Positions 15,110-26,871 of a DNA stretch of 64,000 nt are shown here, in pieces. The stretch lies in the NCBI RefSeq assembly GCF_028710345.1, contig NZ_JAQTUH010000007.1, positions 124,001 through 188,000 on the forward strand. Reading direction: 5' to 3'. The DNA is from Sulfuricurvum sp. Lineage in GTDB: Bacteria; Campylobacterota; Campylobacteria; Campylobacterales; Sulfurimonadaceae. Under the pieces are notes generated by a model. It ran no database searches. It had not been told where the DNA came from and saw only the letters and a program-made list of their open reading frames with translations. Numbering within the stretch: the stretch's first letter is position 1; the number at the start of each line of letters is the position of its first letter. A program made the translations under genes and the position numbers.

Positions 15110-15136
15110 AATACCCTCTCAACTCTCCTCTTTCGC

Positions 15137-15162
15137 TATAATATTCTCACTTTAACAGTGAG
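15137..15162 (+). promoter_or_regulatory. Candidate promoter of the STAND NTPase transcript
   Basis: A perfect TATAAT (15137-15142), preceded by GC, is followed by CTCAC-TTTAACA-GTGAG (15146-15162), a small inverted repeat that would lie at the transcript start. No good -35 box is visible, as is common for sigma70 promoters in this phylum. Confidence 0.5.
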
Positions 15163-15171
15163 GCACATAAT

Positions 15172-15258
15172 TTGTCATTCTTTCTAAAATCTCTTTTAAA
15201 TTCATTGCCACGAAATAGGTTTAGAATAAATGAGATTAATATTGCGATAACAATATGA
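15172..15258 (+). CDS. Possible 28-codon leader ORF coupled to the STAND gene
   Basis: A short reading frame starts at TTG 15172, eight bases after a GAGG Shine-Dalgarno match, and ends with a TGA that overlaps the ATG of the large NTPase (ATGA at 15255-15258). It would encode a basic, hydrophobic peptide beginning MSFFLKSLLNSLPRNRFR. The large gene has no Shine-Dalgarno of its own, so ribosomes finishing this ORF could restart on it. It may instead be the truncated start of an older gene interrupted by the island. The overlap is seen; the role is inferred. Confidence 0.4.
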   Translation: MSFFLKSLLNSLPRNRFRINEINIAITI

Positions 15259-18200
15259 GTAAGTATCAATTTCCATTAAAAGATGAAAAAGAGTTTGAAT
15301 TATTAGTTAATGATTTATGCGCAGAAAAATATGGCTTTGATTTTCAAGTATATGGAAGAAAAGGTCAAACTCAAAGTGGAATAGATGGGCTTTCTTTTGC
15401 AAAGAATGAAAAACAAATTGTTTTTCAGTGCAAAAATAAACTAATAGCTAGAGATGATACAAAAATTCAAAAAGAGCTTTTAGCTGATATAGAAGATGAA
15501 GTTCAATCGGCTAGTACTAAATTTACAAATATTGATACATTTATTTTTGCGAACTCTTTTAAACAAGATACTGTTCTACAAGATAGAGCAATAGAATTAA
15601 CATTTCAATATGGCTTTACTGTTGTTCTGTGGAGTTGGGAAGAGATTGAAGGATTACTCGAAAAATATCCAACAGTAGCAAAACATTACTATCCTTGGGC
15701 ATTTGATAAAAGTGTATTGAGCGAAAATGACATCAAACAAAAGTTTCACGAAAATTCAGTATCTTTACTTTCCTCATCAAGTCTATATATTGAAAAAAGT
15801 TTTATTGATATGCCCGAATTTGATGAGATTTTTGAGTTTATAAATAGTGAGAATTATAAAGATGATTTATTGGTTCTGACTGGAAAAGCTGGTATCGGTA
15901 AAACCGCAATATTAAGTAAGATACAAAGTGTTCTTATAGAGAATAATATGGCTTATTTGAGTATTAAAAGTGATAAAATCGATATAGAAAGTCGAGATTC
16001 ACTTTCTAAATTTTTTGGCGTTGAAGATATTTTACATTCTATAAAACAGTTATCAAGAAAAGAAAAAGTCATTGTGTTGATAGACCAACTGGATGCTTTA
16101 TCTTTAACAATGTCATCAAATCAAAAAGTAATAAATATTATCTTGGGGTTTATAGAACAATTAAAATACATCTCAAATGTAAAAATAATCGTTTCTATCA
16201 GGGAATATGATTTAAAAAATGATCCGTTATTCAAACATTTAGATGACTCTAATGTTATAAGAACACAGTTATTGAGTTTTGAATATGTCAATGACAAATT
16301 AAAATCTTTTGTAAAAGAATCTGTAACATTAAATAATACCTTAATTGAGTTATTACGAACACCACTACATCTTTCGATTTTTATAGACTTATATCCTAAT
16401 GACAATAGCTGTATATCCATTAAAACACTGCAAGATTTATATAACAAATTTTGGGAACAAAAAGTCAATAGTGAGTCAATTGATAGAACTACGAGACAAA
16501 ATAGTATTAAGTTATTAAATTCAGTCGTTCAAAAAATGAATGAAATAAAAAAAATTGAAGTTCCTGCTTTATATTTTGAAGACGAATTTAAAGAAGAAAT
16601 GCGTCTTTTATGTAGTAATGGAATTTTGAAACAAGAGAATAATAAAATCTCATTTTTTCATCAAACTTTTTATGAGTATCTTTTTGCAAAAGCATTTATG
16701 AAAAAAGGGAAATCTCTTTATCAGTATATTGTAATAACCTCCCAAGATTTGAGTATAAGAGAGCAATTTAAACAAATCATTCAGTTTTTAAAAGGAACAA
16801 ATGAAGAGCAATATCTGTTAGAACTTAAAAACATTTTGTACTCAGATAAAGTTCGATTTCATATCAAGCTTTTATTAATTTCATATCTTGGAAGTCTTGA
16901 AAATCCGACCACCGAAGAATTCGCTTTTGTAAAAAAACTCTTTACTGATGATAAAAACTTTGAAAAGTATTTTATAGAAAGTTGGATATCCGCTGATTGG
17001 CTAATCTATTTTAAAAAAGATGGTTTTTTTAATGATGAGAATTTTAAAAAATATAATTTGCATTATAGATTGGAAACATTTGTAAACAAAGAGCCGTATT
17101 TGGTTTTAGAAATATTAGACGAATGTGAATTTGATTCTGAATTCAAAGATGAAGCCATAATGCTGTCACTGGAAAAACTTGATAATTGGAATGATTATAG
17201 TTTTGCAATTTTTGATAAATATCATCATGTCATGCGTAAAGAGAATGTGAGATTTGATATAGAAAAGATTTATAAAAAAGTATATTTATTCAATCAAGAA
17301 TATGCGATACATTTGTTTTTTGACTTTTTAGATACTCTCATAAAAGAAGCTAACAATAATAAAAATGATCTTTTAGATTATCATTGGTATAAGATATTTG
17401 AATTTTTAGTAGCAATGAACAATCAATATATTTTTCAGAAGCTCTTGGAATCAATCCAAAAAATTAGTAGCAAATTTGAGAGAAAACACGCTAAAAAAGA
17501 GTTTTTAATTACTGATCAAGTTTTTGATTCTTGGATGTGGAAATATGATAGTTCAAATCATTCTACATTGAGACTATATAGAAAAACACTTGAAAAAATA
17601 TCGCAAGTTGCTATAGATGATAAAGATGTTTTTATAGAACTTATCAAACCCTATCAGGATACTCGCTATCTTTCCCTGATTTCATTTTTAATATTTGGTT
17701 ATTCAAAAAATCCAGATGACTATAAAAATGAAATATTGGCATTGCTTACAAATATAAAACTTTTAGAAGAGATGTCTTTTGACCACGATGATGGATATGA
17801 GTTGGTAATGTTATTAACTAAATCATTTCACATATATGATGTATCAGAACAAGAAAAAATATTCAATTCTATTTTTCAGGTAAATCCGAAATGGGAAAGT
17901 AGCTATTATGTAGGCAAGTGTCACGGAACATATTTTAGATTAAAAAAATATGAACTTTTATCTCAACTTGATATAGAGGATATAAAGAAATTTGGTTATT
18001 TAAAAGAGTTTCAAGAGTTGCAAAGAAAATTTTATTGGTATAAGCTCAAAAAACCGCATAATGTTGAATCTGGATGGGTTGGAGCACCTTTCGATGAAGA
18101 AGTTTATAAGAAGATGAGTTTGAATAATTGGCTTCAATCGATGAAAGTATTTGATGGTACGGTATCAAGAAAAAGTATGGATAGTTTTTTAAGAGGTAGT

Positions 18201-19523
18201 AAAACTGAACATCATAGGCAATTTGAAAAAGAAGTTACTGAAAAACCAGATAACTTTTATGATTTATTGCTACAGTTAAAATCTGAAAATATTCATGCGG
18301 ACTATTTGTCAGCTGGATTAAGCGGATTAATAGCATCTAACTATGATGCAGAGAAAGTTTTAAAAATTACTCATCTATATTCAGATATAGAAAATAGTTG
18401 GTTAAAACGGACGATTTTAAAAGCTATGAAACATTTAATACATCGGGATAAATTTGATGATAGCTTAATAACTATTTTAGAAGCGAATAGAGATATCAAG
18501 TATGAAGGTTTAATAAGGGATAAGGATAAGTTTCAGACTATTCATGATTATATGTCTAGTTCAATTAATTCTTTTGAAGGTGATTTCGCAGAACTACTCC
18601 CGTTGGTTTATAAAAATGTAGTTAATGATGAAAATAGTACAAAAAGGGTTATGAGCCTTATTGATAATGTTATTGATAAAAATGTAGATTTTGTCATTTT
18701 TGGATTATTAAGAACTTTAGGAAATATTGAATCTGTTGATAAAATTTTATTTGCAAAGCTTCTAGTTAATCTTATAGAAAAAGATGAAATTGGACAAGTT
18801 TCAATATTTTCGTTACACAATTTTCATTATTTATATCTGAATGAGTATGTCTCAAAAGAACAATTGCTCGTATATATTAAAAAGTGTATATCTTTTGCAA
18901 ACAATGTAAAAGATAAAGAAGATGCTCATTATATAAATAATTTAGGAATGTTTTTATTTTACTATTACGTAACAGAAAAAGATGAAATATTTGAAGAGAT
19001 GCTGAATGAAGCGATTAGTTCTAATAGCCAAATTATTCATGGAGTATTACATCAAATTTTTGAACAAGAGCTACATTCAAAAGATCAAGAAAAAGTTGAA
19101 AAATCAAAGCAATTTATTTTAAAATTTAAAAATGATGAAGAGAATGACTACTTTTATACGTATGATTTAGCAAAAATGAAAGGATTGAATTTTATACAAG
19201 ATGATTTTGCATTTATTAAAAGTTTAGCAGAATCTCTTAATATAAGAAAAGAAGTCAAAAGTTTTATTGAATATTTACAAAATGAGTATTATTTAGATAC
19301 TAATCTATCTGAAAAAATATTTGAACTTTTAGAGGTACTCATACACAATATTGATGCAAATAAAGAGATGGGTTATTATGATTCAAGACCGTTGATCGAG
19401 TTTATATTAGAGTTGAATACTAGAGCAAAATCGGATGAAAAGAAAATAGGCATATTAGATTTATTGGATAAATTTTTAATGAGTGACACGCTACGGCATA
19501 CTACTAAATCAGCAATTGATTGA
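15255..19523 (+). CDS. Mrr-like nuclease fused to STAND/NACHT-type NTPase (Avs-like defence protein)
   Basis: A 1422-residue multidomain protein. Residues 1-150 resemble an Mrr-type PD-(D/E)XK nuclease: Glu15, the yGRkGQtQsGiDG loop with Asp44, and Gln58-x-Lys60 (FQCKNK). A P-loop NTPase follows: Walker A GKAGIGKT at 210-217, Walker B VIVLIDQLD at 272-280, a sensor-like arginine in VSIRE, and a winged-helix motif FFHQTFYEYLFAKAF at 467-481, typical of NACHT/STAND proteins. The remaining 900 or so residues are helical repeats without a named domain and would be the sensor. This order matches antiviral STAND (Avs) proteins such as Avs4, which cut DNA after binding a phage protein. It is far more AT-rich than its neighbours, which suggests horizontal transfer. 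The antiphage role is inferred. Confidence 0.82.
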   Translation: MSKYQFPLKDEKEFELLVNDLCAEKYGFDFQVYGRKGQTQSGIDGLSFAKNEKQIVFQCKNKLIARDDTKIQKELLADIEDEVQSASTKFTNIDTFIFANSFKQDTVLQDRAIELTFQYGFTVVLWSWEEIEGLLEKYPTVAKHYYPWAFDKSVLSENDIKQKFHENSVSLLSSSSLYIEKSFIDMPEFDEIFEFINSENYKDDLLVLTGKAGIGKTAILSKIQSVLIENNMAYLSIKSDKIDIESRDSLSKFFGVEDILHSIKQLSRKEKVIVLIDQLDALSLTMSSNQKVINIILGFIEQLKYISNVKIIVSIREYDLKNDPLFKHLDDSNVIRTQLLSFEYVNDKLKSFVKESVTLNNTLIELLRTPLHLSIFIDLYPNDNSCISIKTLQDLYNKFWEQKVNSESIDRTTRQNSIKLLNSVVQKMNEIKKIEVPALYFEDEFKEEMRLLCSNGILKQENNKISFFHQTFYEYLFAKAFMKKGKSLYQYIVITSQDLSIREQFKQIIQFLKGTNEEQYLLELKNILYSDKVRFHIKLLLISYLGSLENPTTEEFAFVKKLFTDDKNFEKYFIESWISADWLIYFKKDGFFNDENFKKYNLHYRLETFVNKEPYLVLEILDECEFDSEFKDEAIMLSLEKLDNWNDYSFAIFDKYHHVMRKENVRFDIEKIYKKVYLFNQEYAIHLFFDFLDTLIKEANNNKNDLLDYHWYKIFEFLVAMNNQYIFQKLLESIQKISSKFERKHAKKEFLITDQVFDSWMWKYDSSNHSTLRLYRKTLEKISQVAIDDKDVFIELIKPYQDTRYLSLISFLIFGYSKNPDDYKNEILALLTNIKLLEEMSFDHDDGYELVMLLTKSFHIYDVSEQEKIFNSIFQVNPKWESSYYVGKCHGTYFRLKKYELLSQLDIEDIKKFGYLKEFQELQRKFYWYKLKKPHNVESGWVGAPFDEEVYKKMSLNNWLQSMKVFDGTVSRKSMDSFLRGSKTEHHRQFEKEVTEKPDNFYDLLLQLKSENIHADYLSAGLSGLIASNYDAEKVLKITHLYSDIENSWLKRTILKAMKHLIHRDKFDDSLITILEANRDIKYEGLIRDKDKFQTIHDYMSSSINSFEGDFAELLPLVYKNVVNDENSTKRVMSLIDNVIDKNVDFVIFGLLRTLGNIESVDKILFAKLLVNLIEKDEIGQVSIFSLHNFHYLYLNEYVSKEQLLVYIKKCISFANNVKDKEDAHYINNLGMFLFYYYVTEKDEIFEEMLNEAISSNSQIIHGVLHQIFEQELHSKDQEKVEKSKQFILKFKNDEENDYFYTYDLAKMKGLNFIQDDFAFIKSLAESLNIRKEVKSFIEYLQNEYYLDTNLSEKIFELLEVLIHNIDANKEMGYYDSRPLIEFILELNTRAKSDEKKIGILDLLDKFLMSDTLRHTTKSAID

Positions 19524-19562
19524 GTGAATGGAAACAGTCTGAATTGAAAATGAGGGGGGCAA
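19524..19562 (+). repeat. Imperfect direct repeat, left copy
   Basis: Bases 19524-19562 (GTGAATGGAAACAGTCTGAA and onward) align with 20649-20683 (GTGAAATGGGAATAGGCTGA and onward) at about 32 of 40 positions. The two copies bracket the Abi-like gene and its leader. Confidence 0.5.
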
Positions 19563-19577
19563 GGGGTAAAACCCCTT
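19561..19577 (+). terminator. Hairpin after the STAND gene
   Basis: AAGGGGT-AAA-ACCCCTT is a perfect seven-pair hairpin 38 bases after the stop of the STAND gene. It has no T tract, so it may end transcription weakly or be part of a repeat element similar in style to the two-hairpin repeats at 3380 and 21479. Confidence 0.45.
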
Positions 19578-19648
19578 GGCTACGCCAGCAAAAGAGGGGT
19601 CATGTATTCAATCTTCACTTTTGATAATGTAAATTCATAAAGGAGGTT

Positions 19649-20389
19649 TTAAATACTCCGATATTTAAGCTTTATCGATTGAACATCAAACCTATCATCG
19701 TATTCAAGCAGGATTTTTAAATCGTTCAAGGCGTTGACAACATCCGATTTACTCATCCGCTGTTTTGTGTATTTCGGATTGGTTTTGATACTTTCTCCTA
19801 TACGGCGGTGATGGCAAATGTCATTTCTCGCATTTCGAATAATGGAAAACAACCCCTTGATTTGATGTTTATTACTGTATTTAGATGTACCGTTGGCATT
19901 GAGTATGGTTTCTTTTTTGATGAATTTCTCAAAGATATTGACGTATCTCGAACCGTTCAAAAACACCAGCTCAAGCGTCCCAAATGAGATGCTGTTTAAT
20001 GCTTGAGACGGTTTTTGAATAGAACGTATTTCTGCTATTTGGAAATCATTCAAATCTCGCATAACGGGGTCAAGATGCCATTGTATTCCATAAGCTTTAA
20101 CCATTCGGTGATTAACGAACGTTCGTAAAAAAGCTTCGAACTGGTTGATTTGAATATAAAGCCAATAATATTGGTTCGTGATATTTTTAATCTCTTCGAA
20201 ATATTGTTCAATCGTGTAATAATTTTTAATAGGTAGAATTTTTTTGTTATGTATCAGGGCTTTAGCACTGTCTTCGAGAATGAATTTTTCTTTTTGGCGA
20301 ACAAGTTTCAATGCTGTTTTTGTTTCGCTTAGTGAGGTTGGGATAATATTGTTAGCTAATAAAATCTGTTTAAAATGCCTATGATTCAT
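19649..20389 (-). CDS. Abi-like HEPN protein (abortive infection family)
   Basis: A 246-residue soluble protein. The C-terminal motif RNARNDICHHRR contains Arg188-x4-His193, the HEPN ribonuclease signature, and the segment SFGTLELVFLNG matches the family feature upstream of it in Abi_2 (AbiD/AbiF) proteins. HEPN toxins of this kind cut RNA when activated and stop phage growth; this role is inferred. The N-terminal third does not closely resemble classical AbiF. It faces the STAND gene tail to tail and has a long leader with hairpins. Base composition is closer to the host than that of the STAND gene, so the two may have arrived separately. Confidence 0.62.
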   Translation of the reverse strand: MNHRHFKQILLANNIIPTSLSETKTALKLVRQKEKFILEDSAKALIHNKKILPIKNYYTIEQYFEEIKNITNQYYWLYIQINQFEAFLRTFVNHRMVKAYGIQWHLDPVMRDLNDFQIAEIRSIQKPSQALNSISFGTLELVFLNGSRYVNIFEKFIKKETILNANGTSKYSNKHQIKGLFSIIRNARNDICHHRRIGESIKTNPKYTKQRMSKSDVVNALNDLKILLEYDDRFDVQSIKLKYRSI

Positions 20390-20399
20390 TTAAGTTGCC

Positions 20400-20545
20400 T
20401 AGATGTATAATTTTACCACTCCTCAGAGGGTGTCGAACCGTTCAAGATGTTTGGCTGTATCAGCTTCGAGCTGAAACTCTCTGAGATTATCCTCTTCAGA
20501 ATCTCAAAACTTCCCAAATATTTATTACGCTATATTGTATCTGAA
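20400..20545 (-). ncRNA. Hairpin-rich leader upstream of the Abi-like gene (candidate structured RNA)
   Basis: On the minus strand, a TACAAT box near 20540 is followed by two perfect adjacent hairpins: GAGATT-type arms at 20482-20488 and 20500-20506 (TGAGATT/AATCTCA), and TCAGCT-TCG-AGCTGA at 20460-20474. The Abi ATG is 70 bases further on. Some AbiF genes are known to have a conserved structured RNA directly upstream, so this could be such a partner RNA. I cannot match it to that motif by eye. Confidence 0.4.
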
Positions 20546-20648
20546 GCCTCTAAAATTTAGATTTATGCGATAAATACTAGCCATCGATAAAATTCCGTCA
20601 AGTCTCAAAATAAATAGTTAATCTTTTGATAAATATTACTTAAAGTTC

Positions 20649-20683
20649 GTGAAATGGGAATAGGCTGAATTAAAATGGAGGGC
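20649..20683 (+). repeat. Imperfect direct repeat, right copy
   Basis: Second copy of the element at 19524-19562; both end in GGGCAA and lie on the same strand. Confidence 0.5.
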
Positions 20684-20720
20684 AAAAAAAAAGGTCGAGG
20701 GTAATTACTCCCTCGACCTT
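20683..20720 (-). terminator. Orphan intrinsic terminator on the minus strand
   Basis: AAGGTCGAGGG-TAATTACT-CCCTCGACCTT is a perfect 11-pair stem with an A9 run on the left side, which is a U9 tract for minus-strand transcripts. No minus-strand coding gene lies upstream: 20721-20879 is non-coding and then comes a plus-strand gene. It may end a small RNA. The whole 490-base gap 20390-20879 otherwise holds only the Abi leader, the repeat copy and a promoter for the Sel1 gene. Confidence 0.75.
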
Positions 20721-20829
20721 AATCGTACCACTCCATTAAGCGTATGGAAAGTTTTGTATTAGCATAAAGTTATACCACAGAATGAAGATTTATTTTTCGA
20801 TTAAATTATTTTTTATAGTCTACTATTAG

Positions 20830-20845
20830 CCTCTTTAGCTACAAT
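20830..20845 (+). promoter_or_regulatory. Candidate promoter of the Sel1 gene
   Basis: GCTACAAT (extended -10 type, box 20840-20845) lies 34 bases before the Sel1 start. The 16 bases CCTCTTTAGCTACAAT match 15127-15142 in 14 positions. Confidence 0.45.
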
Positions 20846-20879
20846 CCCTCTCTTTTATATCGAAAATAAGGTTTACACT

Positions 20880-21350
20880 ATGGTAGTCGATTTTTACATA
20901 ACAGCAATGAAAAACTATGAAGTAGGGCGTTACAAAGAGGCATTTGATATTTTGAGTAGTGCGACCGATGATCCGCGATGTTTGTATGCTCTTGGGACGA
21001 TGTATTATAACGCTCAAGGAGTAGAGCGTAATTTCACTCAATCCACCCACTATTATGCCCAAGCAGCAGAAGCAGGGATTCTACCGGCACAAGTGAATGC
21101 TGGGTTTGCGTATGCAAATTCGATGGGGGTTCCTGAGGATTTTGATAAAGCGGCTTATTATCTCAAAATGGCGGTAGCTCAGGGTGATAGCGCGGCTAAG
21201 ATTACATTAGCCGAGATATATGCCAAAGGAGAGGCGGGAGGGAGCCGTAAAGAGGCGGCGAAACTCATACGCGAGGTTTTGGCTACGACGGGTGGAGAAG
21301 AGGCGTATGATGTCTACAGCCGTTATGATTTAGGAAATGTAAAAGAGTAG
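20880..21350 (+). CDS. Sel1-repeat protein
   Basis: A 156-residue protein made of Sel1-like (TPR-type) helical repeats, seen from ALGTMYYNAQGVERNFTQS, AEAGILPAQVNAGFAYANSMG and the following repeat AVAQGDSAAKITLAEIYAKG. Such repeats bind other proteins. No signal peptide is visible, so it is probably cytoplasmic. AAGG lies about eight bases before the ATG. It stands alone between the defence island and a repeat-rich gap. Function is unknown. Confidence 0.85.
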   Translation: MVVDFYITAMKNYEVGRYKEAFDILSSATDDPRCLYALGTMYYNAQGVERNFTQSTHYYAQAAEAGILPAQVNAGFAYANSMGVPEDFDKAAYYLKMAVAQGDSAAKITLAEIYAKGEAGGSRKEAAKLIREVLATTGGEEAYDVYSRYDLGNVKE

Positions 21351-21382
21351 TACGATAAATTATGCTCAAAAGCATAAGTTCT

Positions 21383-21438
21383 CGTCACTCCCGCGTAGGC
21401 GGGAGTCTAGCTGGATTCCCGCCTACGCGGGAATGACG
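21383..21438. repeat. 56-bp palindromic repeat (HSREGGNP type), intergenic copy
   Basis: A near-perfect palindrome: CGTCACTCCCGCGTAGGCGG is mirrored by CCGCCTACGCGGGAATGACG around a centre of GAGTCTAGCTGGATTC. The same element, in a diverged form, lies inside polA at 28606-28673 and as a remnant at 31133-31165. In this gap (21351-21540) it sits next to a copy of the two-hairpin repeat. Confidence 0.9.
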
Positions 21439-21478
21439 AAACCAAAGTATTTTCTTCCGCATCCGAAAGATGTGGAAA

Positions 21479-21540
21479 GCTTTAGGGGGTTGTAGGGACT
21501 TTAGTCCCTGCCACTAAAATGGGCTTTGCTCATTTGGCGT
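21479..21540 (-). repeat. Two-hairpin intergenic repeat, copy 2
   Basis: Read on the minus strand, it has the order AAATG...CATTT hairpin, then GCAGGGAC-TAAA-GTCCCTAC, then AACCCCCTAAAGC, as in the copy at 3380-3440. The first stem differs from copy 1 by compensating changes (ACG/CGT against ATG/CAT). Confidence 0.7.
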
Positions 21541-22419
21541 TTAAATAAGTGACGCCTTTTCTTTATACGCATCAAACACTTCGTCTTGTGCAGGGGCAAG
21601 TTGAAAATAACCATCAAGTTCACGGTGTTTGGTTTGGAGCAATGCTTCAAACTCATTTTGGGTGATGGGGATATTGTCTTGGAATTTATCGAGTAAGATA
21701 GTGTTATTTCCTAATAAAACAAGATAGCTCATGGTTCCAAAATCGAGCATGGCGACGGAGTGAGAAGGGTCGAGTGTTTTTTGAAATCGTATTTGAATCC
21801 CGCTACTATCCAAATCAGCAATCGGGAGAGTAGGAGAAGGACCTTTTTTCGGTAAAGAATTAAACAACCACGGTGCTTTTGGTTCACTGTGTAATGCGGT
21901 AGCTTTTTTCGCAATTCCCTGTTTAAGCCAAAAAAGGATAATGATCCCTACGATTAAAATCCCGATAACAACATAATAACTTCGTTCAAATTCACTTTCA
22001 TCTTTTGTCGGGAGCGCTCCGGTTGCCTCATTATCGGTTTCATTCAATGCAGGTGCGGTTGCGGGTGGGCTAAAGCGTAATCGTAATCCATATGAATCGG
22101 ATGTTTTAGAGGCTTGTAGGAGAACATTATTACTCACTTTCGCGGTAATGATAATTTGATCACCCGATGGAGCAATAGTAATATTCTGGAGATAAGTGGA
22201 GTTAATCGTTTTATTGAGCGGTGAATCAATCGAAGCCTCTTCGAGTTTGATGGTGATAGTCTGACCTTGTTGGTTTTGACGCAGAACCCCCTCATACGGA
22301 GTATCAAACGTTAACATAACATCAACACGCTCGTGACGATCATAGACATTGTAGCTAAGAATTTTAGAACCCCACACGAAAGTGGTGAGGAGAAGTAGCA
22401 GTAGGGGTATTTTTTTCAT
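21541..22419 (-). CDS. fliO: FliO-like flagellar export protein with large periplasmic domain
   Basis: A 292-residue protein with an N-terminal signal sequence (about 1-18), a beta-rich periplasmic domain (about 19-125), one membrane segment (about 147-164, VVIGILIVGIIILFWL) and a cytoplasmic tail. It follows FliN- and CheX-like genes with a four-base overlap. FliO helps assemble the flagellar type III export gate. Helicobacter FliO is known to have an unusually large periplasmic N-terminal region, which fits here. The assignment rests on topology and position more than on sequence motifs; an unnamed AMIN-type membrane protein is the alternative. Confidence 0.55.
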   Translation of the reverse strand: MKKIPLLLLLLTTFVWGSKILSYNVYDRHERVDVMLTFDTPYEGVLRQNQQGQTITIKLEEASIDSPLNKTINSTYLQNITIAPSGDQIIITAKVSNNVLLQASKTSDSYGLRLRFSPPATAPALNETDNEATGALPTKDESEFERSYYVVIGILIVGIIILFWLKQGIAKKATALHSEPKAPWLFNSLPKKGPSPTLPIADLDSSGIQIRFQKTLDPSHSVAMLDFGTMSYLVLLGNNTILLDKFQDNIPITQNEFEALLQTKHRELDGYFQLAPAQDEVFDAYKEKASLI

Positions 22420-22766
22420 AATCTCTCTTTGGATAGATAATACAGAACGGCACTCGAATCAAGCACCTCATTGATACGGATGGCGAGATTTTTTTCATAC
22501 ACCATCACTTCGCCTTTACCGATAATACGTTGATTTACATACGATTCGACACTTTCACCCGCCGGTTTGCCTAAATCGATGACAGACCCTTTTTCCAATT
22601 TTAAGATTTCACCCAATGTCAGCGTAGTTTGCCCCAAATCGGAGACAAACTCAACTTCCATATCGAGTAATCCTTCGTAGTCCATCCATGAAAGCTCTGC
22701 AACGGGATCAAAACCTTTCTTCTCCAAAACAATCGGCTCATTTGATGGGATAGGTGTTTGATCCAT
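22416..22766 (-). CDS. fliN: Flagellar motor switch protein FliN
   Basis: A 116-residue protein with a C-terminal SpoA (surface presentation of antigens) domain at about 38-112: LLDMEVEFVSDLGQTTLTLGEILKLEKGSVIDL and a terminal IRINEVL. FliN forms the bottom of the flagellar C-ring and binds CheY-P. Its ATG lies two bases after the stop of the CheX-like gene, and its stop overlaps the FliO-like gene. The length and domain are normal for FliN. Confidence 0.9.
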   Translation of the reverse strand: MDQTPIPSNEPIVLEKKGFDPVAELSWMDYEGLLDMEVEFVSDLGQTTLTLGEILKLEKGSVIDLGKPAGESVESYVNQRIIGKGEVMVYEKNLAIRINEVLDSSAVLYYLSKERL

Positions 22767-22768
22767 AT

Positions 22769-23194
22769 TTAAAGTGCCTTTAATGCCATAAATATTTCAC
22801 CATCGGCAATATGGATAGTATTGTATTTATCGAATGGCATATCGAGAGAATCACTATCCAGAAGGTGTGGTGTTGAGATGTTAAAAGTGTTACAATTATC
22901 CTCTTCACAGAGAACTTTGGCACTTCCGACAATCATGTTGGTTGTTTCGAGTAACATATCGCGTAACGTCTCCGTATCGGTAATCTCTTGACCTAAAAAT
23001 ATTTCACTAATGCACAATAATAAGGTCTCATCACACCCGATATAGGTACGATATTTCTCTCCGTCATGTGCTTCAATATCTAAATAAGCAAGAAGTGTTC
23101 TCTTTTTTGGGAATTCTGTAATAATCTGATGGGGTAAACGAATCTGATGGATACAAAAGTTTTCAGCTGCTTTGAGAATATACGTTAGCATCAT
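22769..23194 (-). CDS. cheX: CheX-like chemotaxis phosphatase domain protein
   Basis: A 141-residue protein resembling the CheX/CheC family, which dephosphorylates CheY-P. The family's active-site helix (E-x2-N) is seen in LLETTNMIVGSAKVL at about residues 82-96. A second half-motif is not clear, as in CheX proteins that work as dimers. It is the first gene of the CheX-FliN-FliO set, which supports a role at the motor switch. It starts next to an ATG-ATG pair at 23192-23194. Confidence 0.65.
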   Translation of the reverse strand: MMLTYILKAAENFCIHQIRLPHQIITEFPKKRTLLAYLDIEAHDGEKYRTYIGCDETLLLCISEIFLGQEITDTETLRDMLLETTNMIVGSAKVLCEEDNCNTFNISTPHLLDSDSLDMPFDKYNTIHIADGEIFMALKAL

Positions 23195-23265
23195 GCCTCG
23201 CCTATTAAAATATAAATTTTAGTATTGATAGAGATTATAGCGTAAATCTACAAGGAAATAACGAG

Positions 23266-23271
23266 TATAAT
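23266..23271 (+). promoter_or_regulatory. Candidate -10 box of the TauE-like exporter gene
   Basis: A perfect TATAAT lies 30 bases before the GTG start, in the gap between the divergent CheX-like and TauE-like genes. Confidence 0.45.
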
Positions 23272-23301
23272 CGCGCTTATATTAAGAAAAAGTGGTTTGC
23301 T

Positions 23302-24051
23302 GTGACAATAGAACTCATAATAGGATTAGTACTTTTAGGTATTGTTGTGGGAACCATGTCCGGTTTTTTTGGTATCGGAGGGGGGACGGTGAGTGTTCCT
23401 ATCCTTTTGTATCTAGGATTCGGTATCAAAGAGGCGATCGGTATTTCGATAATGCAGATGGTTGCCGGATCATTAATGGCGGCAAGAGTACATCATAAAA
23501 ATAAGACGTATGTGGTTCAGGATATCAAATATTTTGGATACGGAGGGATTATCGGTGCGGCAGTAGGAGCTGTGTTGGTCAAAGTGTTAGCATCGACCTT
23601 TTTAGAGTGGCTTTTTTTATCGATTGTTGCGTTTACGTTAGGTCGATTAGTATTATCCAATCCAGCTCCATCGCGTGAAGAGGTAGTCCATCGACCACTT
23701 TATACCCTTATCGGTGGAGGAATTGGGATTTTTTCAGGTATGCTTGGAGTTGGAGGATCGATTTTGATGACCCCGATTTTAGTGAGCTTTATGGGATTTC
23801 CTCTCAAAAAAGCATCCGCAGTCGGGCTCTTTTTTGTGATGTTTACCTCTATTTCTGCTTTTGTATCGATGGTGTTTTTAGGGTTAATCAATTTTCAAGC
23901 CGGTTTGATTATGGCAATAAGTTCTATCGGGGGGATTGTATTGGGGATTTGGCTTTTACAAAAAGTTAAAATTTCCCACTACAAGCAGATTCTTGTTGTT
24001 TTTTATATTATTATTTTTATTATTACAGCGTATAAGCTGATCATGAGGTAA
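23302..24051 (+). CDS. TauE/SafE (TSUP) family anion permease
   Basis: A 249-residue integral membrane protein of the TSUP family with about eight membrane segments in two similar halves. Each half begins with a glycine-rich motif: [17 protein letters not shown] near residue 17 and [17 protein letters not shown] near 138. Members move sulfite, sulfonates, sulfoacetate or other organic anions, so export of a sulfur compound would suit a sulfur-oxidising host, but the substrate is not visible. The start is GTG. The gene ends three bases before uvrA and may be co-transcribed with it. Confidence 0.88.
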
Positions 24052-24054
24052 CGT

Positions 24055-26871
24055 ATGGATAAAATTAAAATTATTGGGGCGCGTGAGCACAATCTCAAAA
24101 ATATCTCATTGGAAATTCCAAAAAATAAGTTGGTGGTCTGTACGGGGATTAGCGGTAGCGGAAAATCGACATTGGCGTTTGATACCCTCTATGCCGAAGG
24201 TCAGCGTCGCTATATCGAATCACTCTCATCCTATGCACGGCAATTTTTGGATCGTGTCGGAAAACCCGATGTGGACAAAATCGAAGGGCTTACTCCCGCC
24301 ATCGCGATTGATCAGAAAACTACCTCTAAAAATCCTCGTTCAACTGTCGGGACGATTACTGAAATTTACGATTATCTCCGTCTCTTGTATGCCCGTATCG
24401 GGATACAGCATTGTCATTTATGCGGTAAAAAAATATCTAAAATGTCGGCTCAAGATATTATTGATCAGGTACTAAAGCTCCCTGAAGAGTCGAAAATCAT
24501 TATCTTAGCACCTTTGGTTCGCGAAAAGAAAGGATCATTCACTGATATTCTCGAATCACTCCGTCATAAAGGGTATGTACGCGCCATGATTGATGGGGTT
24601 ATGGTACGTCTTGATGAGGAGATTGAACTCTCTAAAACCAAAAAACATTCGATCAAAGTGGTCATAGATCGTTTGGTTGTTAAAGCCGATAACCACGATC
24701 GTGTGGCTCAAGATGTTGAAAAAGCACTCAAAGAGAGCTACGGTGAAGTAGAGATAGAAATTCAAAACCACGATGAAGTAGGGATGGCGGAGAAGTTGAT
24801 TCACTACAGTGAACACAGTGCCTGTTTTGATTGTAAAGTGAGTTTTGATCCGTTAGAGCCTCTCTCATTTTCGTTCAACTCTCCCAAAGGTGCGTGTTCG
24901 GAATGTGACGGTTTGGGGATTCGCTATGCGCTTGATTATGACAAAATAATCGACTCCGAACTCCCTATCGAGAAAGGGGCGATCAAGATCGTCTACGGAT
25001 TCAATAAAGGGTACTATTTTACGTTTTTGAAAGCGTTTTGTGCGGCGGAAGGGATCAATATTACAGTTCCGTTTTATACGCTCGAAGAACATCATAAAAA
25101 AGCGATTCTCCACGGCAGTATTGATGAAGTGGAGTTTAAATGGCAAGATCATCCGATTAAGCGTATATGGCCAGGTATTGTCCGTATTGCCTATGATATT
25201 TTCAAAGACGAAAAAGATCTAGCCGATTATATGTCTGAAAAACCGTGTAATGTTTGTAATTCTCATCGTCTTAAACGTGAATCATTAGCGGTTCGTGTTG
25301 CGGATAAAGGGATCGGAGAGGTGATTACGATGCCGCTAAAAGATTCGTATGCATGGTTTAGCGACCCTCAAACATTTGCGGGATTAAGTGATCAAAGTGC
25401 GATGATTGCCGCGTCTATTTTGAATGAAATTCGTGAACGTCTTTTCTTCCTCTTTGATGTGGGATTGGGATACCTTTCATTAAGTCGTGATGCCCGTACC
25501 ATTAGTGGCGGTGAAGCGCAACGTATCCGTATCGCCTCACAAATCGGGAGCGGTTTGACGGGGGTGATGTATGTTCTCGATGAGCCGAGTATCGGATTGC
25601 ATGAGCGCGATACCCTCAAACTAATCCGAACTCTCCGTTCTCTCCAAGAGAAAGGGAATACCGTTATCGTCGTTGAACACGACAAAGAGACGATTGAAAA
25701 TGCTGATTACATTGTCGATATCGGTCCGGGAGCGGGAAAATTCGGAGGGAATGTTGTTTTTGCAGGAACATTAGAGGAGATGAAAAAATCAGATACCCTC
25801 ACCGCGCAGTATCTCTCAGGGCGGAAAAAAATAGAGTATTTTTATCGTCGTGAACAAAAAGAGTGGATGTCGATTAAAAATGTAACATTGAATAATATTA
25901 CCAATTTGAGTGTTGATATTCCATTGCACAATTTTGTCTGCGTAACCGGAGTGAGCGGAAGCGGAAAAAGTTCGTTGATTTTGCAAACCTTACTCCCCGT
26001 TACCCGTGAAATTCTCAATCATGCCCGTAAAATTAATCGTGTAGCAGGGGTAGAAGTTGAAGGGTTAGAAAAACTCGATAAAGTGATCTATCTCGATCAA
26101 AGCCCTATCGGACGGACACCGCGTTCCAACCCTGCCACCTATACAGGGGTGATGGATGAGATTCGTAATTTGTTTACCAAAACCAAAGAGGCACAGATTC
26201 GCGGATATACCGCATCACGTTTTAGTTTCAACGTCAAGGGTGGACGATGTGAGAAGTGTCAAGGTGAGGGTGAAATCAAGATTGAGATGCACTTTTTGCC
26301 CGATATTATGGTGAAATGTGATGCGTGTCATGGAAGTCGTTATAACCTCCAAACATTACAAGTGGAGTACAAAGGGAAAAATATCTCTGATGTGCTCAAC
26401 ATGTCGGTCGGTGAAGCATTGGAATTTTTCGCCCCGATTCCGAAAATCAAGGCAATTTTACAAACCCTCAGTGATGTGGGACTCGATTACATCACCTTGG
26501 GACAAAATGCAGTTACCCTCTCAGGTGGGGAAGCACAACGTATCAAACTTGCTAAAGAGCTCAGTCGCCGTGATACGGGAAGTACCCTCTATATCCTCGA
26601 TGAGCCGACAACGGGATTGCATTTTGATGATGTCAACCGTCTGACCAAAGTGCTCCATAATTTCGTCGAGCTTGGGAATTCGGTATTGGTTATCGAACAT
26701 AATCTTGATATGATTAAAAATGCCGACTATATTATCGATATGGGTCCCGAAGGGGGAAGCGGTGGCGGATTGTTGGTTGCCATCGGAAATCCTGAGGTTG
26801 TAGCACGTGATTGGGAAAAAACCGGAAGTTTTACCGGAAAATATTTGGCAATTGAATTAGATAGGGTATAA
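24055..26871 (+). CDS. uvrA: Excinuclease ABC subunit A
   Basis: A 938-residue DNA damage sensor of nucleotide excision repair; it binds damaged DNA as a dimer and loads UvrB. Two ABC ATPase modules are visible: Walker [10 protein letters not shown] near 31 with signature [11 protein letters not shown], and GVSGSGKSS near 635 with [12 protein letters not shown]. Zinc modules are shown by [15 protein letters not shown]...CSECDG and [19 protein letters not shown]...CDACHG. The length is normal for the family. No separate promoter is seen behind the TauE-like gene. Confidence 0.98.

Follow-up and report, generated by a model that had tools for sequence, protein, structure and literature searches.

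A probable orphan leader from an apparently undescribed, same-strand, type I-toxin-like cassette family in Sulfuricurvum

Introduction

A primary transcript that cannot be translated is regarded as a hallmark of type I toxin loci in work on the aapA/IsoA cassettes (PMC6733600). The full-length aapA messenger RNA (mRNA) is described there as silent, with long-distance pairing and a 3' anti-Shine-Dalgarno sequence that covers the ribosome site, and the AapA3 toxin of 30 amino acids (aa) is accompanied by IsoA3, an 80-nucleotide (nt) RNA from the opposite strand (PMC6733600). IbsC of Escherichia coli is reported as a predicted membrane-spanning peptide of 19 aa, and SibC as a separate RNA that pairs with the ibsC mRNA (PMC8309996). 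For the zor/orz system of E. coli, orz-only loci have been reported, antitoxin copies without the toxin gene, one of which was confirmed to be transcribed (PMC11264685). Here we describe a minus-strand hairpin, and the leader RNA that it would end, located between a sel1 gene and an Abi-like gene (abi) in a 64,000-nt stretch of a Sulfuricurvum sp. contig (NZ_JAQTUH010000007.1, positions 124,001 to 188,000; hereafter the window). Sequence comparisons indicated that this element is probably an orphan leader module, derived from a type I-toxin-like cassette that is present in many copies, the intact ones continuing into a short open reading frame (ORF) for a hydrophobic peptide.

The cassette family is apparently undescribed, patchily widespread and type I-toxin-like, with an unusual same-strand layout. 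Literature on type I systems in Sulfurimonas-type bacteria and their relatives, searched mainly by title and abstract, yielded no description of the cassette; an earlier one is possible. Helicobacter, the host of aapA/IsoA, belongs to the same order as the cassette hosts. Taking the known systems as portrayed in the reports cited above, the cassettes resemble aapA/IsoA in being multicopy and chromosomal, in encoding a small peptide and in the predicted silent full-length mRNA with a 3' anti-Shine-Dalgarno sequence. They differ from it in the peptide, of 19-20 aa and not the 30 of AapA3, and in the candidate antitoxin, which is a same-strand terminated leader with an intrinsic terminator lying within the 5' untranslated region (UTR), between the pairing arms. 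The 19-aa hydrophobic, putatively toxic peptide is like that of Ibs/Sib by length and composition, whereas SibC is an RNA of its own and the candidate antitoxin here is the terminated leader. The two cassette peptides of 20 aa gave no Ibs match in Pfam or NCBIfam and one chance-level Pfam hit (E 2.6), the 19-aa members being too short for the scan. The window copy is like the orz-only loci as an antitoxin-side remnant without a toxin gene, but it belongs to a different system: the candidate antitoxin is here the leader of a toxin-like mRNA, which orz, to our knowledge, is not. An intrinsic terminator within the 5' UTR is also found in attenuator-controlled leaders and riboswitches; unlike these, intact copies all have one kind of gene downstream, this tiny ORF, to whose start the leader is complementary.

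A promoter, leader and terminator on the minus strand of the window

Minus-strand positions 20720-20691 read AAGGTCGAGGG-AGTAATTA-CCCTCGACCTT, a perfect 11-pair stem with an 8-nt loop, and are followed by a nine-T run (20692-20684), two T of which lie within the stem. The hairpin and nine-U tract described in the initial annotation of this DNA were thereby confirmed. Neither strand of the window has another perfect stem of 9 or more pairs (loop 3-9) with a run of 7 or more T no further than 3 bases away. A looser scan of positions 16000-26000 gave 6 terminator-like sites where chance would give 5.9 on average, and terminator-like sites as a class thus show no excess there; the other five sites have 5-10 pairs, with G-T allowed, and T runs of at most 4. 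Just upstream of the hairpin, the minus strand has a single ORF of 60 aa or more (21062-20835), which overlaps sel1 in antisense and had no Pfam match.

From TATAAC, which differs from TATAAT by one base, to the end of the T run the distance is about 80 nt. The short RNA of about 80 bases that had been proposed to start at this hexamer therefore fits the sequence, and its promoter, leader and stem turn up again in other genomes of the genus. The start of the window leader was placed by reference to the family, in which some 6-7 nt separate the -10 element from the paired 5' tip. Two covariance models were used in the searches, R1 for the intact form and a wider one, R2, built from the R1 hits; R2 scores for those hits are non-independent for this reason. 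The features of the leader are as follows.

20769..20774, minus strand: -10 element TATAAC, extended by a TG at 20777-20776, one base upstream (TGGTATAAC, 20777-20769); from the sequence
20684..20763, minus strand: predicted orphan small RNA (leader), about 80 nt; BLAST family, and match of R2 to its core with 47.3 bits, E 4e-9 (three loci searched)
20731..20763, minus strand: 5' arm, GCTAATAC...TGGAG; its pairing partner in intact copies extends from CTCCA to codon 7 of the peptide ORF
20691..20720, minus strand: terminator stem-loop, its loop AGTAATTA containing the palindrome TAATTA; from sequence scans and comparison of family loops
20684..20692, minus strand: T9 tract; from the sequence
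20676..20680, minus strand: CTCCA, 3' half of a helix with TGGAG (20735-20731) and last recognisable cassette bases ahead of the lost ORF, the leader being intact up to here; from the model alignment

At the gathering threshold, Rfam gave no match in the window or in six cassette loci; sub-threshold Rfam hits (mir-4788, S414, MicC and others) were judged to be chance.

Intact relatives continue into a short hydrophobic ORF

A 114-base query matched 21 of 41 Sulfuricurvum genomes (BLAST, E<=0.001), some of them with several copies. Conservation of the stem in relatives, on which the proposal of a small RNA had partly been staked, was thereby found, and on this count that proposal survives. The first half of an intact copy runs from a TATAAT-like promoter through the 5' arm, at the expected transcription start, and TGGAG to the terminator stem with its T run; the second half consists of CTCCA, the 3' arm, a G-rich Shine-Dalgarno sequence, the start codon and ORF, and a second hairpin that in most cases is followed by a C-rich tail. 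The T9 run was present in all 25 aligned intact cassettes. Model searches produced 90 matches, of which 79 were distinct; 72 of the distinct matches had an ORF passing the filter used for counting (16-24 aa, at least 55% hydrophobic, G-rich site), or 71 after duplicate removal. The ORF has 19 residues in 69 of these 71 unique cassettes and 20 in the other two. Seven of the 79 distinct matches (the second place in L090, L165, L167, L171, L172, L176 and L178) had no counted ORF, their ORFs being broken, without a usual start or of another length, and three of these were set aside by hand; also outside the 71, L179 and L180 hold 19-aa ORFs by eye, and L182 and L183 only 14-aa ones. Just ahead of the leader, a hexamer with at least 5/6 identity to TATAAT was found in 68 of the 69 unique 19-aa cassettes (TATAAT itself in 52/69), and the TG of an extended -10 in half (35/70) of the cassettes with a recognised hexamer.

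The peptide, exemplified by MDKLLFALLLMCIFAPMLN, is short and hydrophobic (about 76% AVLIMFCW) and, as judged from its sequence, membrane-type. Members from other families, such as MWRLLLIILLLCLLTKKLY and MQQLLLIVILLMFVITKLH, are strongly divergent in sequence, with length and layout kept. Diversity was 0.31-0.48 at first, 0.09-0.11 at second and 0.36-0.37 at third codon positions, and this retention of second positions is the mark of a hydrophobic coding sequence. A near-invariant hairpin (commonly GTGCATTTTTGCAC) lies within the peptide ORF, at columns 156-169 of alignment A1, which comprises 25 full copies.

The leader pairs with the start of the ORF and co-varies with it

The consensus fold of 25 cassettes had 97.6% of cells paired, against 85.0% with shuffled partners and 44-52% when slid, and 24 pairs had changed on both sides. 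In the wider alignment A3, which was itself fitted to the model, the corresponding values were 93.8%, 70.8% and 40-51%. Helices 1 and 2 of the fold enclose the start codon and partly pair the Shine-Dalgarno sequence. The 5' tip was predicted to pair with codons 4-7 of its own ORF at -14.3 kcal/mol and with non-cognate ORFs at -6.0 kcal/mol, the cognate ranking first in 22/25 cases (0/10000 permutations); for the whole 5' arm the values were -36.2 and -18.0 kcal/mol, and all 25 cognates ranked first. Pairing of the Shine-Dalgarno sequence with the 3' tail showed a modest preference for the cognate (-14.7 versus -12.7 kcal/mol; 0/5000 permutations, 71 cassettes), and the Shine-Dalgarno sequence and the tail past the second hairpin co-vary between groups, for instance AAGGGGACA with TGTCCCCTT in L164. 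By predicted fold and covariation, the primary cassette mRNA would hide its Shine-Dalgarno sequence.

The palindromes in the terminator loops change and yet stay palindromic (TAATTA, TCATGA, TGATCA, TTCGAA). Of the 13 distinct loops with 6 nt or more, 10 contained a 6-nt palindrome, whereas 5000 shuffles of the letters gave 1.4 such loops on average and never more than 7. The count is crude; the loops are related by descent and some palindromes are centred on the stem. Eleven of the 71 cassettes had no loop palindrome even when two flanking bases on each side were included. We regard the palindromic loop as suggestive only.

Leaders frequently outlast their ORF

From 47 Sulfuricurvum loci, 49 pattern matches were obtained, namely 30 full copies, 11 solo leaders (the window copy and 10 others) and 8 matches inside genes, which were dropped; 6 of the 47 loci had no classified copy. 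By eye, a common flank was recognised between L033 (full) and L021 (solo), and between L060 (full) and L036 (ORF lost). In the opposite direction, all 44 Campylobacterota contigs matched by the exact ORF pattern, which samples well-conserved ORFs only, also carry the leader; 13 other contigs with this pattern, from unrelated groups, have no leader and were taken as chance. That sampled intact ORFs keep their leader and leaders often lose their ORF fits a harmful peptide, although it falls short of proof.

The genome of the window also contains a remnant with an internal deletion (L069 ~1435-1525; C3, ~293,500), in which the promoter and 5' tip run into the C-terminal part of the peptide and the 3' hairpin; the C-terminal part is kept there and the start is gone.

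The cassette is patchily distributed in one order

Including hits in the window's own genome, R1 detected the cassette in 22/101 genomes of the family, belonging to 7 of 18 genera, and in 11/199 genomes of the order. On the same basis R2 found it in 21/398 genomes of the order, three other families included, and in 6/200 genomes across the phylum, all six in the order of the window organism. Opposite-strand model hits at strong hits were treated as the mirror image of the palindrome. Records of the pattern scan came from Sulfuricurvum, Sulfurimonas and other Campylobacterales or Helicobacteraceae. This patchy spread is as expected for an accessory cassette. When the sequences on either side of 25 intact copies were compared, most proved unrelated, and a few sites were in common. 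A phage or plasmid origin was considered and rejected: one cassette query (L043) had no match in phage and plasmid collections, and the ORF pattern scan found none in viral contigs.

Tandem cassettes were seen in Sulfurimonas indica NW8N (L111, 358-492 and 670-799) and in a Helicobacteraceae metagenome-assembled genome (L090, 442-569 and 786-910), where the first ORF is interrupted. At L002/L066 and L020, from two genomes, a cassette copy follows what seems to be the same small gene, in opposite orientations, hinting at independent insertion or inversion.

A one-promoter scheme and its competitors

The architecture, pairing, covariation, coding signature and repeated ORF loss are read from the sequences themselves; for transcription, termination efficiency, processing, toxicity and action in trans we infer the following scheme. 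An intact cassette would have one promoter, most transcripts from which would be expected to end early, at the internal terminator, as RNAs of about 80 nt, while read-through would give the mRNA for the 19-residue membrane-type peptide. In this mRNA the 5' arm would be paired to codons 4-7 and to part of the Shine-Dalgarno sequence, so that the start codon is enclosed; the 3' tail could pair with the Shine-Dalgarno sequence as well. With the ribosome site met by the 5' arm once it is made, and the Shine-Dalgarno sequence within reach of the 3' tail, the full-length mRNA would be silent from birth. Processing at the 5' or 3' end would free it for translation, and the terminated leader would then pair with the freed mRNA in trans; carrying the same arm, it could act on any mRNA whose own leader was removed by processing. 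The palindromic terminator loop, common to both RNAs, would allow the first contact. At the window locus the ORF is gone and the leader, probably still transcribed, would be partnerless. The fullest form of the scheme, in which both partners (leader antitoxin and read-through toxin mRNA) come from a single promoter on a single strand, the loops kiss before the arms pair, and orphan leaders provide portable immunity against matching cassettes, is put forward tentatively and with more doubt than confidence. If it were true, a toxin and its silencing RNA would need no two genes on opposite strands, as premature termination could make both, with the terminator setting their ratio. Being short, repeated and strongly covarying, the cassette lends itself to probing each pairing by mutation and compensation. 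The family, in which the interest lies more than in the window copy, would add a group of small peptides to Sulfurimonas-type bacteria.

Several observations weigh against our interpretation of the element as the leader of a type I-toxin-like cassette. The fold of the 25 cassettes was derived from the same alignment in which its pairs were counted, and the count favours it over its slid versions; of the measures used, further pair types (65 versus 60.4) were reached by 18/500 shuffles, and the other four by none. A full-length mRNA that blocks itself means that the fold needs no trans role of the terminated leader. Four solo leaders (L053, L037, L063 and L058) fold weakly, at -10.2 to -12.3 kcal/mol where full copies reach -16.6 to -25.4 kcal/mol, which favours relic status for these four. 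With 10 of the 11 solos and the 25 full copies of A1 compared, solos were predicted to pair with resident toxin-like mRNAs at -17.9 and with foreign ones at -18.1 kcal/mol (9 versus 241 pairs), and the idea that solo leaders answer to resident toxins was left unsupported. Model searches found no significant intact cassette in the window's own genome, rated 100% complete. A divergent candidate for a full cassette does occur there (C2 ~235,100; L066 ~1330-1640) with E 0.32 and was left uncounted; it has a TTG start and the peptide (L)LRLWIVFLVLMVLAPALH. Finally, a -10-like site in antisense lies within the ORF, with at least 4/6 identity to TATAAT in 50/69 cassettes and 5/6 in none.

The window copy is probably either a recent relic or an orphan antitoxin. 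That it is a mere relic, a leader drifting without function after the loss of its ORF, seems to us an evenly balanced proposition. Arguments for it are that 10 further solos exist, of which four have a weakly folding terminator, that no significant intact cassette was found in the own genome and that solos match resident mRNAs no better than foreign ones; the perfect stem and a -10 element one base off TATAAT argue that the window copy is either recent or kept, and orphan antitoxin loci can be expressed elsewhere, as described for orz-only loci (PMC11264685). A functional orphan antitoxin, directed against incoming matching cassettes and perhaps stabilising or following the defence-type insertion in which it lies, is unlikely. 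For the window arm, the predicted energies of pairing with two toxin-like mRNAs from other genomes, those of L044 and L047, are -31.2 and -29.8 kcal/mol, and the leader is placed on an insertion of defence-type genes; matching toxins are nevertheless not enriched in the same genomes as solos, and the absence of the L043 query and of the ORF pattern from the mobile-element sequences searched also speaks against it.

For the intact cassettes, it is similarly doubtful that the real antitoxin would be an antisense RNA of the IsoA kind arising within the ORF, with the leader only as a cis lock and the terminator as an attenuator. Its appeal is that aapA/IsoA, as reported, does use an opposite-strand RNA (PMC6733600), and that the recurrent -10-like stretch, weak as it is, keeps such an RNA in consideration. 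In no copy does this stretch reach 5/6 identity, which the sense promoter region does in 68/69; coding plus the conserved hairpin (helix 6) offers another account of it; and a T5 run stands at the expected place of an antisense terminator in just 7/69 cassettes. Very improbable is a plain terminator shielding abi or sel1 from stray minus-strand transcription: a strong intrinsic terminator does stand between the two genes, but promoter, leader and terminator are conserved together and dispersed at mostly unrelated sites, which points to a cassette as the origin and not to local insulation, and insulating the sel1 promoter from antisense transcription would leave the family unexplained. Least credible of all is an antitoxin or guide RNA of the Abi-like gene, since its position 294 nt upstream of abi on the same strand, with abi between two cassette remnants, is offset by the lack of Abi or STAND homologues in the other cassette loci searched, the absence of Rfam matches and the pairing of the leader with a peptide mRNA elsewhere.

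The initial annotation was thus right in placing the element upstream of abi. Its suggestion of an antitoxin of the Abi locus is borne out as far as antitoxin-like pairing goes, but the partner in intact copies is the start of the 19-residue hydrophobic ORF and not Abi; the guide-RNA role found no support. A comparison by tblastn of the window Abi and STAND proteins against the other cassette loci (own-locus loci excluded; mostly about 1.5 kb per side) gave no match at E 1e-3.

The 5.7-kb insertion carrying the leader

The leader lies at the right edge of an insertion between dusB and sel1, which was delimited by comparison with the loci of relatives. In 9 loci of relatives, the alignments to the dusB and sel1 sides either adjoined or left no more than 90 nt between them (5 loci), or lay about 490-525 nt apart (3 loci); in the remaining one the contig ends too early to tell. 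The insertion and its other features are listed below.

15111..20787: insertion of 5.7 kb between dusB and sel1, comprising the STAND and abi genes and, at the right edge, the orphan leader
19649..20389, minus strand: Abi-like ORF between two cassette remnants (PADLOC PDC-M34B, 2.8e-4; no Pfam match above cut-off)
19553..19580, minus strand: cassette-type 3' hairpin GCCAAGGGGTTTTACCCCTTGCCCCCCT, on the far side of abi; with up to 2 mismatches allowed, its core (19560-19579) occurs at just two sites in the genome, this one included
20653..20682, minus strand: copy A of a 30-nt repeat, overlapping the end of the cassette remnant; 80% identical to copy B
19527..19556, minus strand: copy B of the repeat, at the end of the 3' hairpin remnant; from repeat comparison

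The abi ORF, downstream of the hairpin, presumably contains a HEPN-type motif. Leader and 3' hairpin remnants flank it on either side and both run into the 30-nt repeat, which places abi between the ends of one cassette or of two. A resemblance of the leader to the region preceding abi (20408-20437, 70% over 30 nt) was treated as chance, because unfiltered R2 on L001, a locus that spans this region, gave only the leader and a 12.7-bit opposite-strand match. The STAND-type NTPase gene (15255-19523, 1422 aa) matched Pfam AAA, with nSTAND3 just below cut-off, and PADLOC PDC-M54A (5.8e-13).

The 30-nt repeat (about CATTTTAATTCAGCCTRTYCCCATT) forms direct copies on both sides of abi and may be the footprint of a mobile element. 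The same repeat was found in L071 of another genome (minus-strand 1510 and 2460), around an ORF with sub-threshold Abi_2/HEPN matches, and as an inverted pair in L070.
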